Virus record (IMG/VR): IMGVR_UViG_3300035156_000373
Span: 1 to 42,306 of that record
DNA length: 42,306 bases
Source of the DNA: a virus
Direction: 5' to 3' (one strand)
The notes below the pieces were generated by a model. That model saw nothing but the letters and a program-made list of their open reading frames with translations, was not told the origin of the DNA and did no database searches. Numbering within the stretch: position 1 is the stretch's first letter; every line of letters begins with the position of its first letter. A program made the translations under genes and the position numbers. Positions 27,149 through 39,683 of this stretch are shown here, piece after piece.

Positions 27149-27409
27149 GTTCCTTGATGCCGGAGCCCGGAACGCGGCGGGAACGACACAACGGAACAAT
27201 AATGCTTAACCTTAACAACAGCTTAGCTCTGTCTCTGATCCATTGTTCCGCATGTTCCGCGTCTTTTGCGCGCACGTAAGCCGCGCGCATGCACACATAC
27301 CCAAGACTTGAACCGCCAATCGCGGAACAGGCGGAACGCTGCGGCAAGTCATTGACATGTAACCATAACTCCGTTCCCGCCGCTGCGAGTGAAGGCAGAA
27401 CACAGGAAC
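27149..27409. repeat. Cluster of ten GGAAC/GTTCC pentamers
   Basis: GGAAC (plus) starts at 27169, 27180, 27193, 27324, 27333 and 27405; GTTCC starts at 27149, 27245, 27254 and 27373. About 0.5 would be expected by chance in 261 bases. Two tandem pairs with 9-base spacing form a long inverted repeat: 27243-27261 and 27321-27339 agree at 16 of 19 positions when one is reversed. The cluster lies between the divergent late and early promoters. It may bind a regulator or act as a replication origin. Confidence 0.6.
27170..27184. promoter_or_regulatory. LexA-type box GAAC-N7-GAAC
   Basis: GAAC GCGGCGG GAAC is an exact match to the direct-repeat SOS box of alphaproteobacterial LexA (GTTC-N7-GTTC on the other strand). 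It is part of the GGAAC cluster and lies about 36 bases upstream of the -35 of the leftward late promoter. It is followed by ACACAACGGAACAATAAT (27186-27203), a motif repeated at 30313. An exact match can arise by chance about once in a window this size, so position is the main argument. Confidence 0.45.
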
Positions 27410-27412
27410 ACC

Positions 27413-27826: not shown

Positions 27827-28044
27827 GCGCCGCCACGGTTCGTTGCGCCAGCCACGGCTTCACCGGCAACGGCCGCGCCTGCCCGCATTGCGAACGCGAT
27901 CGCCAGCGCCTCGCGCTCGCTTCCCGCGCTTCGCTCCGCGCCACCAAGCCCTTCAGCCGCCGCCAAGAGCGCGGGCGTGTCGAGGCGATCGACGTCGACG
28001 GCCTCGCCCTGTTCGACGCCCACCGCTCACCAACCCTGTTCTGA
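27823..28044 (+). CDS. 73-residue protein with zinc-ribbon-like Cys pairs
   Basis: The protein starts with GTG at 27823 (MSAATVRCASHG) and contains Cys8, His11 and the pair 'ACPHCERD' (Cys20 and Cys23), which could bind one zinc. The rest is basic ('RASLRATKPFSRRQERGR') and ends 'FDAHRSPTLF'. It is coupled to the gene before it and lies 10 bases before the ComM-like gene. Nucleic-acid binding is likely but unproven. Confidence 0.65.
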   Translation: MSAATVRCASHGFTGNGRACPHCERDRQRLALASRASLRATKPFSRRQERGRVEAIDVDGLALFDAHRSPTLF

Positions 28045-28054
28045 AGGAATGAGG

Positions 28055-28729
28055 ATGCCACTGGCTCAGCTCGACCTGTTCGCCGGCCCGCTCTTCGATT
28101 GTGCACCCCTTTCGATCGACCGCGCCGACGACGCCCGCGCGACGCAGACGTTCGGCACGGTGTCGCATGCCGTCGAGCCCGCGCCCGATTTCGCCGCCGT
28201 CCACGGACAGGAAACGGCAAAGCGCGCGCTCGAAATCGCGATCACCGGACGCCACGCGATTGCGCTGCATGGACCGTCCGAGCCGTGCAGCGACGCCCGC
28301 CACTGCCGCGCCGCGGCGTTGGCGCTGGCGTCGGGTCATGGCCTGAACGGTCGGATCGACATCTTGACGGTCGGACCCAATCGCAGGCAGCTCGACCAGT
28401 TCGACATGCACGTCGTTCTTGCGCCCGTGCCGCAGATCGATCGACGGCTTCCGCCCGCTTGCGACACGAACGCGGTCATTGCCGCCCGGATCGCGCCGGC
28501 GCGCGCCATCCTCGATGGGTGGAGCACGAGCGGCTGCCCGCCGCTGACCGAGCGCGCTGAGCGCCTGCTCGACCAGGCGGAGGCCGCTTGGCAATTGTCG
28601 CCCGATCGGCGCCGTCGCGTGCTTGCTGTCGCCCGCACCATCGCCGCGCTCGCGTCGGGCCTCACCCTCGATCGCGTCCACGTCGCGGAGGCGCTGAGCT
28701 ACGTCCCGGCCGATGAGCGGATCGCTTGA
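28055..28729 (+). CDS. Degenerate ComM/YifB-like protein without ATPase motifs
   Basis: A 224-residue protein. Residues 45-74 match the region just before Walker A in ComM/YifB (Mg-chelatase-like AAA+): 'DFAAVHGQETAKRALEIA' and 'HAIALHGP'. The expected GPPGSGKT is replaced by GPSEPCSDA, and about 200 residues of the ATPase core are missing. Residues 108-125 ('RRQLDQFDMHVVLAPV') match the later 'LLDRIDIHV' segment, with Arg changed to Gln. Residues 160-220 match the C-terminal domain ('RRRRVLAVARTIAAL', 'HVAEALSY'). Host ComM is a branch-migration helicase used in DNA uptake. This protein can probably still bind the hexamer partner surface but not ATP. I chose ATG 28055, because AAGGA is 6 bases upstream; ATG 28049 is also possible. 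Confidence 0.75.
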   Translation: MPLAQLDLFAGPLFDCAPLSIDRADDARATQTFGTVSHAVEPAPDFAAVHGQETAKRALEIAITGRHAIALHGPSEPCSDARHCRAAALALASGHGLNGRIDILTVGPNRRQLDQFDMHVVLAPVPQIDRRLPPACDTNAVIAARIAPARAILDGWSTSGCPPLTERAERLLDQAEAAWQLSPDRRRRVLAVARTIAALASGLTLDRVHVAEALSYVPADERIA

Positions 28730-28818
28730 GCCCAGCAACCCGTCTTCGCCCGCCGCTGTCAGCCGGGCGACCAAATTGGGACTAGCCCGCAGCTTGCGCG
28801 TTCCGTATCTGTTCTGGA

Positions 28819-29169
28819 ATGGACGAGCGAATCAAGGTCAACGAACGGCAGCTGGCGGCGGCACTCTCGAACTGGCTGAGGACGATCCCCAAGCAGGTCT
28901 GGGATCGGTTCATCGAGCACAAGATATTGCAGCATTACAAGCGGTCCAGCTTGCAGGCCCAACAGCTCGAAGGGCAGATCGCCGATCATGTCGCATCCGA
29001 GATGACGCGCCTGGACTGGCAGGTGACGCACCCGGCCAACGGCAACATCTTCTCGGACGCCAACCGCCACGCCCGTCAGCATCACGACGATCGGTCCCGG
29101 GCGCTACAGGATGAGCGCGCCAACGCTGCTCGTGCGCAGGGCGGCGACGGCGCCGAACGAAACGTCTGA
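28819..29169 (+). CDS. Hypothetical early protein (116 aa)
   Basis: A helical, charged protein: 'MDERIKVNERQLAAALSNWL' and 'WDRFIEHKILQHYKRSSLQ' are convincing protein-like stretches with amphipathic helices. The C-terminal 35 residues are Asp/Arg/Ala-rich and less ordered. No family is recognised. It lies 89 bases after the ComM-like gene on the same strand and may belong to the same transcript. The ribosome site is weak. Confidence 0.55.
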   Translation: MDERIKVNERQLAAALSNWLRTIPKQVWDRFIEHKILQHYKRSSLQAQQLEGQIADHVASEMTRLDWQVTHPANGNIFSDANRHARQHHDDRSRALQDERANAARAQGGDGAERNV

Positions 29170-29224: not shown

Positions 29225-29584
29225 TCAGCCCCGCCGGCACAGCCGCCGATCGCGATCGAACCGTGCCACCCGCACCGCCTGGCCGGCGCGCAGCTGGGCG
29301 CAGCTCAGGTCCACGCCGCCGGCCGCGCAGAATGCCGTCACCCGCTGGTAGCTCTTCCCCGTCCGCCGACAGCGCAGTGTCTTGCCCAGTGCCAGGCCAC
29401 GGAGGCTCGCGCGCGACCGGTAGGGATCGCCGGCCACGCAGCGCCGCCCGCGGCGGCACGCGCCCGGCATCTCGGGCGCGTCGATCGCGTGCAGCCGCAC
29501 CGCCGGTCCGCCCCGGCAGCGCAGCGTGTCGCCGTCATGCACGGCCGCGACCTGGCACAGAAAGAACAGGGATACGATCAGCAC
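29225..29584 (-). CDS. Small secreted nuclease-like (SNase/TNase) protein
   Basis: A 119-residue protein with a short N-terminal hydrophobic signal (LIVSLFFLCQVAA) and the staphylococcal nuclease core: 'VHDGDTLRCRGG', 'VRLHAIDAPEMPG', 'YRSRASLRGLALGKTLRCRR' and 'RVTAFCAAGGVDLSCAQLRA'. It has six or more Cys residues, fit for disulfides outside the cytoplasm. The Asp and Arg positions of the TNase active site are partly visible. It could degrade DNA at the cell surface, or be a remnant: it is shorter than most family members. It lies 11 bases after the S24 repressor gene on the same strand, so it may be expressed in the lysogen. Confidence 0.75.
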   Translation of the reverse strand: MLIVSLFFLCQVAAVHDGDTLRCRGGPAVRLHAIDAPEMPGACRRGRRCVAGDPYRSRASLRGLALGKTLRCRRTGKSYQRVTAFCAAGGVDLSCAQLRAGQAVRVARFDRDRRLCRRG

Positions 29585-29595
29585 GGGGCGGGGCT

Positions 29596-30234
29596 TCAGC
29601 CCAGCCGCCTGGTCGCGCCGATCACCCGGCCGACCGGATCGACATCGCCGATCGGGCAGGCTTCGAAATCGGGATAGGCGGGATTGTCGCTGCGGATCGC
29701 GATCGTGCCGCGGCCCGGCGCCACCGCCACCCGCTTGACGATCAACAGGTCGTCGCTGCGCAGCACGTAGATGCCGTCGCGCAGTCGCCGCGCCGCCGGG
29801 CTGCGGTCGATCAGCACGTCGTCGCCCGGCGCCAAGGTAGGGGCCATGCTGTCGCCGACCACTTCGATCAGCGACACGTGCCGGGGCTCGCTCGCGCCTA
29901 GCGAGCGCAGCCAGCCGGCATCGAAGCGCACGTGGCCGATCGGCCGCTCGGCGCCGACCACCGCCCCGGCGCCCGCCGCCGCCTGCATTCCAAAGCGCGG
30001 CACTTCCACCAGCCCGGTCGGCGGAGCCTCCGCTTCAGGCCCGCCCAGCACGGCTTCGGGCACGTCGAAATAGCGCGCCAGGATTTGCCGCTCGCGCTCC
30101 GGCAGCCGCTTGGGCACACCGCGCCGGATGAATTGCTGGACGTAGGCGACGTTGCGGCCGAGCAGCCGCGACAGGCCGGAATAATCCTCGCCCCGTTCGT
30201 CGATCAGCTGCTGCAGGGCTTGGCGCGGGTCCAT
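29596..30234 (-). CDS. S24-type phage repressor (HTH plus LexA-like peptidase)
   Basis: A 212-residue repressor. Residues about 1-60 form a short helix-turn-helix ('YSGLSRLLGRNVAYVQQFIR'). A possible Ala-Gly cleavage site is near residues 87-88 ('MQAAAGAG'). The peptidase domain has Ser129 in 'VVGDSMAPTLAPGDDVL' and Lys167 in 'LLIVKRVA', the complete catalytic dyad. Proteins of this family cut themselves when RecA is activated, which links the gene to DNA damage. It is divergent from the 57-residue gene at 30358. Its start codon lies only 8 bases from the proposed -10, so the mRNA may be leaderless, as for lambda cI. Confidence 0.88.
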   Translation of the reverse strand: MDPRQALQQLIDERGEDYSGLSRLLGRNVAYVQQFIRRGVPKRLPERERQILARYFDVPEAVLGGPEAEAPPTGLVEVPRFGMQAAAGAGAVVGAERPIGHVRFDAGWLRSLGASEPRHVSLIEVVGDSMAPTLAPGDDVLIDRSPAARRLRDGIYVLRSDDLLIVKRVAVAPGRGTIAIRSDNPAYPDFEACPIGDVDPVGRVIGATRRLG

Positions 30235-30241
30235 GCCGCTC

Positions 30242-30270
30242 GCCTTACGGCTAGGAGGAGCCTAGGACAA
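30242..30270 (-). promoter_or_regulatory. Promoter and dyad operator of the S24 repressor
   Basis: On the minus strand TTGTCC (30270-30265), 17 bases, TAAGGC (30247-30242). The dyad CTAGG-AGGAG-CCTAG (30251-30265) lies in the spacer. A further AGCCTAG half-site occurs at 30279-30285, 20 bases from the same heptamer at 30259. This fits autoregulation by the S24 repressor. The -10 is poor, so the promoter is tentative; the dyad is directly visible. Confidence 0.5.
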
Positions 30271-30310
30271 CAGGAATCAGCCTAGATCGGCGGCGTCGTT
30301 CCAGCTACAG

Positions 30311-30325
30311 GAACACAACGGGAAC
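30311..30325. promoter_or_regulatory. LexA-type box GAAC-N7-GAAC before the 57-residue gene
   Basis: GAAC ACAACGG GAAC matches the alphaproteobacterial SOS box exactly. It lies 32 bases before the ATG at 30358 and next to AGTAAT (30326-30331), a -10-like box. It is part of a 19-base motif shared with 27186-27203. Host LexA binding here would keep the rightward gene silent until DNA damage. Confidence 0.5.
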
Positions 30326-30357
30326 AGTAATCCCGAGTCGCTTAGGAGAATGGCCCG

Positions 30358-30531
30358 ATGGAGCCTGTGGATCGCGAACTCGAACCCTTCCTGGTCCGCG
30401 ACGCCCTTCGCGGCCTCGATCATCTGCTGGCCGGCCAGCGCGGTGGCGGGCAGGTCGCGGCGGCCGAGCTGTGGGCCTTGATCCACCTCGTCCGGCGCGG
30501 CGCCGAAATCGCCTGCGCCGCGCCCGATTAG
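30358..30531 (+). CDS. 57-residue protein divergent from the repressor
   Basis: ATG at 30358 with AGGAG 9 bases upstream. The protein (MEPVDRELEPFLVRDALRGL... ending ACAAPD) is helical, with an Ala/Leu-rich amphipathic C-terminal half ('VAAAELWALIHLVRRGAEIA'). It occupies the place of cro or an antirepressor, divergent from the S24 repressor, but no HTH is evident. Its end overlaps the convergent helicase gene by 4 bases. A role as SOS-induced antirepressor is a hypothesis from position and the LexA-type box. Confidence 0.65.
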   Translation: MEPVDRELEPFLVRDALRGLDHLLAGQRGGGQVAAAELWALIHLVRRGAEIACAAPD

Positions 30532-32450: not shown

Positions 32451-32572
32451 TTCAGAACAGGTCCCCTCGGGTGCCGCGCCTCACGCGCCAGCGCGTAGCC
32501 GGCCAGCAGCAGGAACGGGTGCAGCGGCCGATCAAACGCCAGCCACGGACAGACACGCCGCGACCGGCTCAC
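32447..32572 (-). CDS. 41-residue protein coupling PAPS-like and helicase genes
   Basis: A short gene with GTG at 32572, fused to the stop of the upstream gene (GTGA), and TGA fused to the helicase start (ATGA). The protein is MSRSRRVCPWLAFDRPLHPF followed by LLLAGYALAREARHPRGPVLK: a hydrophobic centre with basic ends. Perfect coupling on both sides supports reality. It may be only a translational link or a small helicase partner. Confidence 0.55.
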   Translation of the reverse strand: MSRSRRVCPWLAFDRPLHPFLLLAGYALAREARHPRGPVLK

Positions 32573-33465
32573 GTTGCCTCTCCCGCGCACCAGAGACCGC
32601 ATTCAGCGTCGAACTCGTCGTCGTCATTGTTGTCGAGTGGGAGCAGCGGACTTGCGAGAACCGAATGACGAAGCTGCTCAACGCTCTCGTCGGCATCGAA
32701 GCGGGCGTTGCTCTCGCCATTGATCTTCACCGAGCACTTGGCGTTTCGTTCGGCGGCAATCCACCAGTCAGCGGCAGCGGGGTTCTGCCGAATATATCGA
32801 GCTCGGCTCTGGCGCTTCTTCAGAAAGCAGAGGTCGCAATTGCCATCGGCACTATGCAGGCCGAGGTCGAAGGGCTGCGCTGTCCAGAATGTTTGGACGT
32901 CGGACTGGCGAACCATGCCACCGGCCTTTGTCGCCATCGGCATGATTGCGGTGAACGGGTCTTTGTTCGCGTGGTTGCGGGCGATCGCCTTCAACACACG
33001 GGCCATCTCATCGCCGCGCAGTCCGACCGCGTTGACCCAACGCTTATAGCCCCGCGCCCGCATGAAGTTCGCCATCACGCGGATCTTCAACTCGATCGTG
33101 CAGTAGCGCATTTGTGAGTTGGGAAGGTATTGCTTGCGCGCCAGAAGAGCTGCGAACGGCTCCCCGTCGCGGGAAGCGCTATTGTAGCCGACTTCAGTGT
33201 AGCCGCCCTCCCAGGGATCGCCGCGCTTCCTCGGCTGCCACTCCAGCCACCGAACACGCACACCCCACCGCGTCGCGCATTCATGCACAAACCGCAGCGT
33301 CTCTTCCCGCTCCTTGCCCGTATTGGCAAAGCAGACGTGCACATCGTCAGGCAGCTTGCCGTCATAGGCATCAAGTATGTGCCAGAGCATGTAGCCGCTG
33401 GTGCGGCCGCCGCTGAAGCTGATAAGCGCAGGGCCTTCGATGCGGTAGGGATTGCCGCCGCTCAC
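32569..33465 (-). CDS. PAPS-reductase-like PP-loop protein
   Basis: A 298-residue protein of the phosphoadenosine phosphosulfate reductase/PP-loop superfamily. The ATP-pyrophosphatase loop is 'SFSGGRTSGYML' (residues 16-27). 'VHVCFANTGKEREETLRFVH' follows. Cys122 ('RYCTIELKI') and the pair Cys210/Cys213 ('GNCDLCFLKKR') could hold an iron-sulfur cluster, as in DndC-like sulfur transferases. Such proteins occur in many phages, but their role is unknown. Thiolation or other modification of DNA or tRNA, or antidefence, is possible. It lies between primase and helicase and is coupled to both sides by 4-base overlaps. Confidence 0.82.
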   Translation of the reverse strand: MSGGNPYRIEGPALISFSGGRTSGYMLWHILDAYDGKLPDDVHVCFANTGKEREETLRFVHECATRWGVRVRWLEWQPRKRGDPWEGGYTEVGYNSASRDGEPFAALLARKQYLPNSQMRYCTIELKIRVMANFMRARGYKRWVNAVGLRGDEMARVLKAIARNHANKDPFTAIMPMATKAGGMVRQSDVQTFWTAQPFDLGLHSADGNCDLCFLKKRQSRARYIRQNPAAADWWIAAERNAKCSVKINGESNARFDADESVEQLRHSVLASPLLPLDNNDDDEFDAECGLWCAGEAT

Positions 33466-34808: not shown

Positions 34809-35156
34809 CTACGCGCCTCCGCCCCGGTCACGGGCGGACAGCACGCCCCTCGGCGGGATCAGTCCTGCCCGTTCCGCCGCGCCGATCGCGCCGCGCAGCT
34901 CGGCCAGCCCGTAGAAATGATCGGGCCGGACCTGTCCGCGCGTGTACAGAAACAGCTTCTTCATGTTGTCGCGGTCGGGAATGGCGTCGCCCATCTCCCA
35001 CTTGCGCCAGGTCTGGTAGGGAACCCCGATCGCCTTCGCGGCTTCGGTGATGCCGAGCACTTCCGGCTCGCGCGTGCGATGATGCAGCCGGCGCTGCGTC
35101 TCGCGCCACGCCTTCAAAGGGTTGGTAATGTCCCGAACCGCAACAGGGGCTTCCAT
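34809..35156 (-). CDS. HTH regulator at the head of the replication operon
   Basis: A 115-residue protein with a Cro/CI-type helix-turn-helix ('LGITEAAKAIGVPYQTWRKW', residues 34-53, followed by 'EMGDAIPDRDNMKKLFLY'). It is divergent from the XRE gene at 35235, with one operator between them, like cro opposite cI. It is the first gene of the leftward early operon. It may repress the lysogeny gene after induction or control replication. No peptidase or other effector domain is present. The start ATG is 8 bases from the proposed -10, which would make the mRNA leaderless. Confidence 0.78.
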   Translation of the reverse strand: MEAPVAVRDITNPLKAWRETQRRLHHRTREPEVLGITEAAKAIGVPYQTWRKWEMGDAIPDRDNMKKLFLYTRGQVRPDHFYGLAELRGAIGAAERAGLIPPRGVLSARDRGGGA

Positions 35157-38465: not shown

Positions 38466-38710
38466 GCGGTCATCCGATCTTTTGCGGCTACTGCGGTATC
38501 GACATGGTTCCCAATAGCCGTCGCTACCGGCTGCACTGGACCCCGAATGGTTCAGTTAGAACCACCCGTATTGCCGCGCATTTTCACGAGGAATGTGGTG
38601 ATCGCATGCTGGCCGAATTGAGGGATCGGATTGCCGTCGCAGCTGCCGAACGGTTTGACCGCCAGTGGAGCCGTGGTCCGCGCTTCCGACTGCTGGACGC
38701 CGCAGAATGA
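38462..38710 (+). CDS. Small zinc-ribbon-like protein
   Basis: An 82-residue protein (GTG start) with 'IFCGYCGIDM' (Cys8, Cys11) and 'AHFHEECGDRM' (His40, His42, Cys45), enough ligands for one zinc ion. It is basic around 'NSRRYRLHW' and probably contacts nucleic acid or protein. Coupled to genes on both sides. Function unknown. Confidence 0.65.
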   Translation: MSGHPIFCGYCGIDMVPNSRRYRLHWTPNGSVRTTRIAAHFHEECGDRMLAELRDRIAVAAAERFDRQWSRGPRFRLLDAAE

Positions 38711-38985
38711 TCGTCGTCACGCCTCGCAAGCTCACCCGGGCGCAGCGGCAGCTGGTCGAGCTGGCCGCCGCCGGCTACCGGCAGGAGGAGATCGCCGCTC
38801 GGCTCAACATCCGCAGAAATGCGGTGGAAAGCTCTTTCTCCCGGATGCGGGCGCGGCTCGACGCGCGCAGCACGCTCCACGTCGTCGCCATCGCCCTCAC
38901 GCACGGCCTGATCGACCAAAAGGAAGTCGCCCGCCTGCCACTCCCGCCCTCGCGCCAGCCCAAGGGCGGCAGGAGGAAGAAGTGA
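38707..38985 (+). CDS. LuxR-type HTH protein
   Basis: A 92-residue protein. 'LTRAQRQLVELAAAGYRQEE' and 'IAARLNIRRNAVESSFSRMR' form the LuxR/FixJ (sigma-70 region 4-like) helix-turn-helix. There is no receiver or sensor domain. The C-terminal tail is very basic ('PKGGRRKK'). Such short proteins act as transcription regulators, here maybe of late or accessory genes. It is coupled to the methyltransferase gene by GTGA. Confidence 0.78.
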   Translation: MIVVTPRKLTRAQRQLVELAAAGYRQEEIAARLNIRRNAVESSFSRMRARLDARSTLHVVAIALTHGLIDQKEVARLPLPPSRQPKGGRRKK

Positions 38986-39683
38986 GCGGGGAGAAGGCCG
39001 ACTTGCTGGCGGGAACTCGTCTTGCTCCTGATCAACCGACCGGGCTCGGGTCCGCTATGGCGGGCGGCAAGGGCAAGCTCAATCACGACAAGACCGCACG
39101 GCGCGCGCTCGATTTCTACCCGACGCCCGCCGAGTGCACGAGGGCCCTGTTCGCGGCCGAATTGCCGTTCATGGCCGTGCACGGTTTCGATCTGTGGGAA
39201 CCGTGCGGGCGCGGCGGAGCGATTGCCCGCGTCGCCGACCGGCTCGGCTTTCGTGTAGCCGCTACCGACATCGTCGCCGATCCGGTCAACGCCGTGCTGC
39301 TGCTCGATCTGCTGGACGCGCGCGAGGCGAGGGCGCCTTTGGTCGTCACCAACCCGCCATTCGCTCTCGCCCGGCCGATGATCGCCCATCTGCTCGGCAA
39401 GCTCGACGTCCGCTACCTGGCCCTGCTGCTCAAGACCACCTTCTGGTCGGCCGACAATCGTCACGGGCTGTGGCGCGCGCACCCGCCAGCTCGGCGCTGG
39501 GACATGACCTTCCGCCCCGATTTCCTCGAAGGCGCGAGCCGCAAGAAGGGCTCGGGGTCGACCATGAATTGCAGCTGGTTCGTGTGGGACAGCCTCGCCG
39601 CCGGCCCGCCCGTCTGGGGCCTGCTCGGCCGCGACGGCCCGGTCTTGCCGACCGGCCCGGACCTGTTCGCGGCTGCATCGTGA
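38982..39683 (+). CDS. Phage DNA adenine methyltransferase-like protein
   Basis: A 233-residue class I methyltransferase. 'RALDFYPTPAECTRALF' leads to the SAM-binding 'LWEPCGRGGAIARVADRLGF' (motif I region; Glu73, Gly76, Gly78) and 'ATDI'. The catalytic motif is 'VVTNPPFALA' with Asn-Pro-Pro-Phe at residues 124-127, the N6-adenine type. No restriction partner is next to it, so it is an orphan enzyme that may shield phage DNA or change transcription. Starts with GTG at 38982. Confidence 0.85.
   Translation: MSGEKADLLAGTRLAPDQPTGLGSAMAGGKGKLNHDKTARRALDFYPTPAECTRALFAAELPFMAVHGFDLWEPCGRGGAIARVADRLGFRVAATDIVADPVNAVLLLDLLDAREARAPLVVTNPPFALARPMIAHLLGKLDVRYLALLLKTTFWSADNRHGLWRAHPPARRWDMTFRPDFLEGASRKKGSGSTMNCSWFVWDSLAAGPPVWGLLGRDGPVLPTGPDLFAAAS

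Follow-up and report, generated by a model that had tools for sequence, protein, structure and literature searches.

Why would a temperate phage that has an XRE/HTH pair at 35 kb also carry an S24 repressor facing away from a small gene, and does the second locus work through the first? The window, the whole stretch of 42,306 nucleotides analyzed here (IMG/VR virus record IMGVR_UViG_3300035156_000373), is a temperate podophage-like genome of 42 kb, with a tail tubular-type protein, a head–tail adaptor and a large terminase; the integrase gene is at its right end. The S24 gene and its 57-codon divergent ORF lie between the small terminase on one side and a D5/primase-like gene on the other. From the integrase through the replication genes to the terminase and head genes, the window is collinear with two sister phages, L040 and L041.

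The three genomes have a DNA methyltransferase in common (38631-39683 in the window). A PAPS-reductase-like protein among the replication genes (32569-33465) is not found in the corresponding stretch of the sister phages. The ORF at 27977-28729 in the window matches a magnesium-chelatase/ComM-like protein at its edges only (the start of Mg_chelatase and Mg_chelatase_C), the ATPase middle being apparently missing.

The S24 repressor and its operator

The repressor side of the locus is read from the minus strand and consists of the following features:

29596-30234, minus strand: S24 (CI/LexA-type) repressor gene, 212 amino acids, assigned by Pfam, PHROG, alignment, model and PDB fold matches
29225-29584, minus strand: small nuclease-like ORF immediately 3' of S24, with a DGDTL...AIDAPE motif; matches PHROG_18798, a PHROG of unassigned function
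30252-30276, minus strand: putative S24 operator/promoter core, TTCCT-N6-CTAGG-N5-CCTA, containing CTAGG-N5-CCTAG at 30251-30265
30272-30285, minus strand: second, upstream operator-like dyad, CTAGG-CTGATT-CCT, in a tandem layout as in some host loci (e.g., L065)
30270-30265 and 30247-30242, minus strand: possible −35 (TTGTCC) and weak −10 (TAAGGC) with a 17-bp spacer, an inferred assignment

The S24 ORF matches PF00717 (Peptidase_S24) over the curated cut-off (E = 7.6e-16) and the PHROG_4 transcriptional repressor family (E = 5e-34). Ser129, Lys167 and Ala87-Gly88 are invariant in an alignment of close relatives, and Ser129, Lys167 and Gly88 are still invariant in a wider alignment of 15 sequences. 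In an AlphaFold model built from 15 sequences (pLDDT 87.6), a five-helix domain at the N terminus is joined to an S24 beta domain, and the best PDB fold matches are phage 186 CI, LexA and lambda CI, with 13-22% identity to the solved relatives. There was no Pfam HTH match in the ORF, and the S24 profile found no sequence match in the PDB; the modeled five-helix domain, with full-length repressors as the best matches, points to an N-terminal helix-turn-helix domain. Self-cleavage is expected because of the invariant residues and the fold matches, and the initial annotation's description of a full Ser/Lys autocleaving repressor holds, with cleavage as a prediction. The protein thus shares with LexA, lambda CI and 186 CI a helical DNA-binding domain joined to an S24 domain, the Ser/Lys pair and the Ala-Gly motif, but its operator is made of CCTA/TAGG half-sites and its cleavage is predicted only. 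The downstream ORF probably shares a transcript with S24. By its motif alone it would be SNase-like, and Pfam gave no SNase match.

The CTAGG-N5-CCTAG dyad that had been pointed out in the promoter spacer was confirmed: it occurs a single time in the 42-kb window, where none is expected, and the longer TTCCT-N6-CTAGG-N5-CCTA is unique in the window with two mismatches allowed. Three of the 16 CTAG sites in the window are inside 35 bp at the S24 promoter, and the CTAGG sites are both found there. A scan for the sigma-70 consensus gave no match, nor did a search of the control-region DNA against phages.

A TTCCTACTTGTCTAGGAAAAATCCTA-like sequence is present upstream of S24 homologues in Sphingomonadales, where the homologous site reads CCTA-N6-TAGG-N6-CCTA; in the window, the inner spacing is five bases rather than six and the −10 is weak. 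Of 120 genomes, 13 have the strict operator pattern CCTANNTGNCTAGGNNNNNNCCTA, at one site each (reversed control, 0), and every one of these sites is immediately 5' of an S24 ORF. Because of this association, we read the CTAGG site as a putative autoregulatory operator serving a small regulon. The shorter dyad likewise matches the S24 promoter in 10/10 genomes, and other sites are few. In a weight-matrix scan, the window site was not ranked first, the matrix being biased by a fixed TCTAGG in the site collection and by the differing inner spacing; the scan is given no weight as evidence for the operator.

Sphingomonad relatives of the locus

S24 homologues (E ≤ 1e-10) are present, mostly as a single copy, in 238 of 298 genomes that sample the order Sphingomonadales, and the best of them are about 50-57% identical to the phage protein. 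The latter is on a long branch in the tree, where the phage copy is not reliably placed. Of 84 S24 loci, 78 have a divergent gene for a small HTH-like protein (...PTRFGRDAVGDPRFVFDLRKGREPR...), a label that reflects a reading of the sequence, as Pfam and NCBIfam give it no name. The divergent gene has been lost from several host loci, and the profile of the small HTH-like family has no match in the window.

In Erythrobacteraceae, the S24 locus adjoins TraG, a staphylococcal-nuclease-like gene and lineage-specific cargo, and for this reason looks like part of a conjugative element. The locus is also found on sphingomonad plasmids. These plasmid copies and the loci next to conjugative genes rule out that the host S24 is a purely chromosomal core gene. 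SetR of the SXT/R391 elements is an S24-type repressor that controls a mobile element. By this general description, the TraG-adjoining relatives of the phage S24 would be comparable to SetR, but the phage itself has no conjugation genes. Of two cargo stretches by S24 in Erythrobacteraceae (L005 8793-12240 and L010 8778-13666), one holds an AAA ATPase and an S8 protease and the other a Tle1-like gene and a ResIII helicase gene; both are possible defence cargo.

Ten viral contigs also contain an S24 locus with the operator, several of them with Mu-type portal and F genes. Since the phage ends in these contigs fall inside or just past the small HTH-like gene, we read them as insertions beside a host S24 locus rather than as phages carrying the repressor. 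The ends in L173, L193, L210, L219, L226, L237, L198, L203, L218 and L179 are at differing positions, with a common end sequence near GGCnnGnnACAC, and the small HTH-like gene by S24 may be a hot spot at which transposable phages insert in sphingomonads. Two of the Mu-type portal proteins (L219 2508-4547 and L193 6854-8872) have a C-terminal Acb1 anti-CBASS domain.

Judged by homology, then, the region in the window is not phage-specific but a copy of a repressor locus that is widespread among sphingomonads. It retains the order of GANTC, LexA-type box and operator found in its relatives, but differs from them in its inner operator spacing (5 vs. 6) and in having a 57-codon orphan for the HTH-like gene. 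By this comparison, it is the divergent gene that has been swapped. No S24 gene was found next to D5-type genes in other sphingomonad genomes (four stretches examined), and no published description of the sphingomonad S24 switch was found among open-licence papers.

The divergent gene and the LexA-type box

The opposite side of the control region has the following features:

30358-30531, plus strand: 57-codon ORF that points away from S24 and toward the D5/primase-like gene, with which it is convergent
30344-30348, plus strand: AGGAG, likely ribosome-binding site of the 57-codon ORF, nine bases before the ATG
30334-30340, plus strand: CGAGTCG, a GANTC in YGAKTCG form, conserved in position in almost every S24 locus
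30311-30325, plus strand: LexA-type box, GAACACAACGGGAAC, of the alphaproteobacterial form (GAAC-N7-GAAC/GTTC-N7-GTTC), at the same place in relatives
30298-30314, plus strand: GTTCC-AGCTACA-GGAAC, a perfect palindrome that shares bases with the LexA-type box; expected count in the window, 0.04

The 57-residue protein is an orphan. It has no match in Pfam, PHROG or NCBIfam, and no convincing homologue was found in phages, viral contigs or 398 sphingomonad genomes; five weak matches (E = 0.003-0.008), all within long frames, were taken as chance. That it could be a diverged form of the HTH-like partner was ruled out, as it does not match the family profile. A single-sequence model predicts a two-helix hairpin (pLDDT 82), and a structure search returned generic helical hairpins only (E ≥ 1). 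It may be asked whether the ORF is a gene at all. Such frame lengths are common in GC-rich DNA, and several host loci also lack a divergent gene, as would be the case if it had been lost on capture and S24 merely regulated itself. However, the ORF has a ribosome-binding site, a coding-like GC content by codon position (0.86/0.47/0.83) and a confident helical hairpin from the single sequence. That the ORF is not a gene is rather unlikely, and there is a good likelihood that the gene is real, tempered by the ease with which GC-rich DNA yields open frames.

The GAAC-N7-GAAC motif previously noted in front of the small gene is real, although the palindrome that overlaps it had been missed. By itself, the box is weak, since three such motifs are found in the window against 1.08 expected; it becomes meaningful because relatives carry the same type of box at the same place. 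Of 60 non-redundant control regions, 21 have a GTTC-N7-GTTC-type box no more than 130 bp from S24 (0.23 expected, with a maximum of 3 in 500 simulations), and the same type of box is found 5' of lexA in 10/10 sphingomonads. GANTC is present in 57 of the 60 regions (30 expected, maximum 42 in 300 simulations), and the order of GANTC, LexA-type box, CTAGG operator and S24 is common to the window and its relatives. YGAKTCG is the proposed form of GANTC at promoters that GcrA activates when methylated (PMC7987155). The comparisons of the box make it likely, on indirect grounds, that host LexA controls the divergent promoter through the putative box.

A further GTTC-N7-GTTC match (28800-28814) is 4 bp before the ATG of the ORF at 28819-29169 and is near chance by count. 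Ten GGAAC/GTTCC motifs are found in 300 bp 5' of the small terminase gene, at 27149-27410 in the window, 14149-14410 in L040 and 13676-13938 in L041. Their core spacing (9-70-9) is identical in the three phages, and the array is perhaps a packaging or replication site.

Since GGAAC repeats are thus conserved elsewhere in the genome, the LexA-type box might belong to a phage motif instead, in which case the GGAAC/GTTCC boxes at 30298-30325 would be bound by a phage protein and not by LexA. The conservation of the array by the terminase in all three phages fits this suggestion, as does a match to the LexA pattern at 27170, which falls in the array. On the other hand, the core repeats of the array are 9 bp apart, compared to 11 for the box at 30311-30325, and non-phage S24 loci, where no array is expected, have GTTC-N7-GTTC at the same place. 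Binding by a phage protein is consequently considered unlikely, though it is the strongest competitor of the LexA reading.

Small phage genes with a LexA-type box are also known from 186 (Tum), N15 (AntC) and the Gifsy phages (GfoA/GftA; PMC3121763), but here the 57-codon gene stands opposite an S24 repressor and no homology to these genes was found. The TF-smORF modules similarly pair a regulator with a small orphan protein encoded by a divergent neighbor; however, they are switched on by a transcription factor independently of SOS (PMC10432266), whereas the phage locus has a repressor and a LexA-type box.

The XRE switch and the proposed mechanism

Both sister phages share the XRE gene and its divergent gene (34809-35156) with the window. 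No S24 gene was found in the whole records of either phage, and the 57-residue and nuclease-like ORFs have no match in the compared stretches. As the sister phages have the XRE pair but no S24, the comparison indicates that S24 is an added, accessory module and not the core immunity switch, and the earlier view that it is separate from the pair at 35 kb is borne out.

The initial annotation went further and proposed two layers of control, the S24 protein and LexA, acting through the small protein on the main XRE repressor. The first part is upheld insofar as the phage has a second repressor switch that is self-contained, with a predicted operator of its own and a probable LexA input. For the second part, no sequence, structural or genomic link was found between the 57-residue protein and XRE, and neither the 35-kb switch nor the replication promoter near 35.2 kb has an S24 operator of the CTAGG type. 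By analogy with the small LexA-controlled antirepressors of Salmonella prophages, 186 Tum and N15 AntC (PMC3121763), the small protein could still be an SOS-induced antirepressor that inactivates XRE, which would place the main switch under the joint control of S24 and LexA. Its size, position and LexA-type box fit such a role, and small orphan proteins that inactivate cI have precedent (PMC10432266). However, it has no homology or common feature with known antirepressors in Pfam, PHROG, NCBIfam, phages or structure, and the XRE switch evidently does not need the gene, since the sister phages have the XRE pair and no such gene in the compared stretches. An antirepressor acting on XRE is thus a decidedly improbable explanation. 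That S24 is the main immunity repressor and the XRE pair secondary is very unlikely: it is the sole autocleaving CI-like repressor identified in the window by Pfam and PHROG, but sister phages whose integrase, replication and packaging genes are laid out in the same way lack it, and the replication promoter has no CTAGG-type operator.

The reading favored here, with moderate confidence, is that the accessory module is a copy of the sphingomonad S24 locus that has kept the bidirectional control region, exchanged the divergent gene and operates as a damage-responsive switch. The homology, the association of the operator with S24, the conservation of the box, the exchange of the gene and the absence of S24 from the sister phages were computed; binding, cleavage, induction and the effector role are inferred from them. 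S24 would bind the CTAGG half-sites of its own promoter and thereby limit its own synthesis and, from its position, probably repress the divergent promoter as well. Host LexA would probably bind the GAAC-N7-GAAC box and repress the divergent promoter. Cleavage of S24 and LexA, promoted by RecA once DNA is damaged, would then release the S24 operon and the 57-residue gene, whose product would be a damage-induced effector.

The recognition helix of the phage S24 and its operator half-sites are nearly the same as in the host copies. A tentative and rather unlikely extension is that an undescribed S24/LexA/GANTC divergent switch moves among sphingomonad chromosomes, conjugative elements, plasmids and phages, and that the phage S24, because of this similarity, may act in trans on the switches of its host or of rival elements while having its own damage-induced effector opposite. 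If true, these proposals would define both the operator and the gene arrangement of a damage-responsive switch carried by most sphingomonads, and would exemplify a phage that has put a control region of host type to work on a new output gene. A single short DNA site would then be enough to test for cross-talk among host, conjugative element and prophage.
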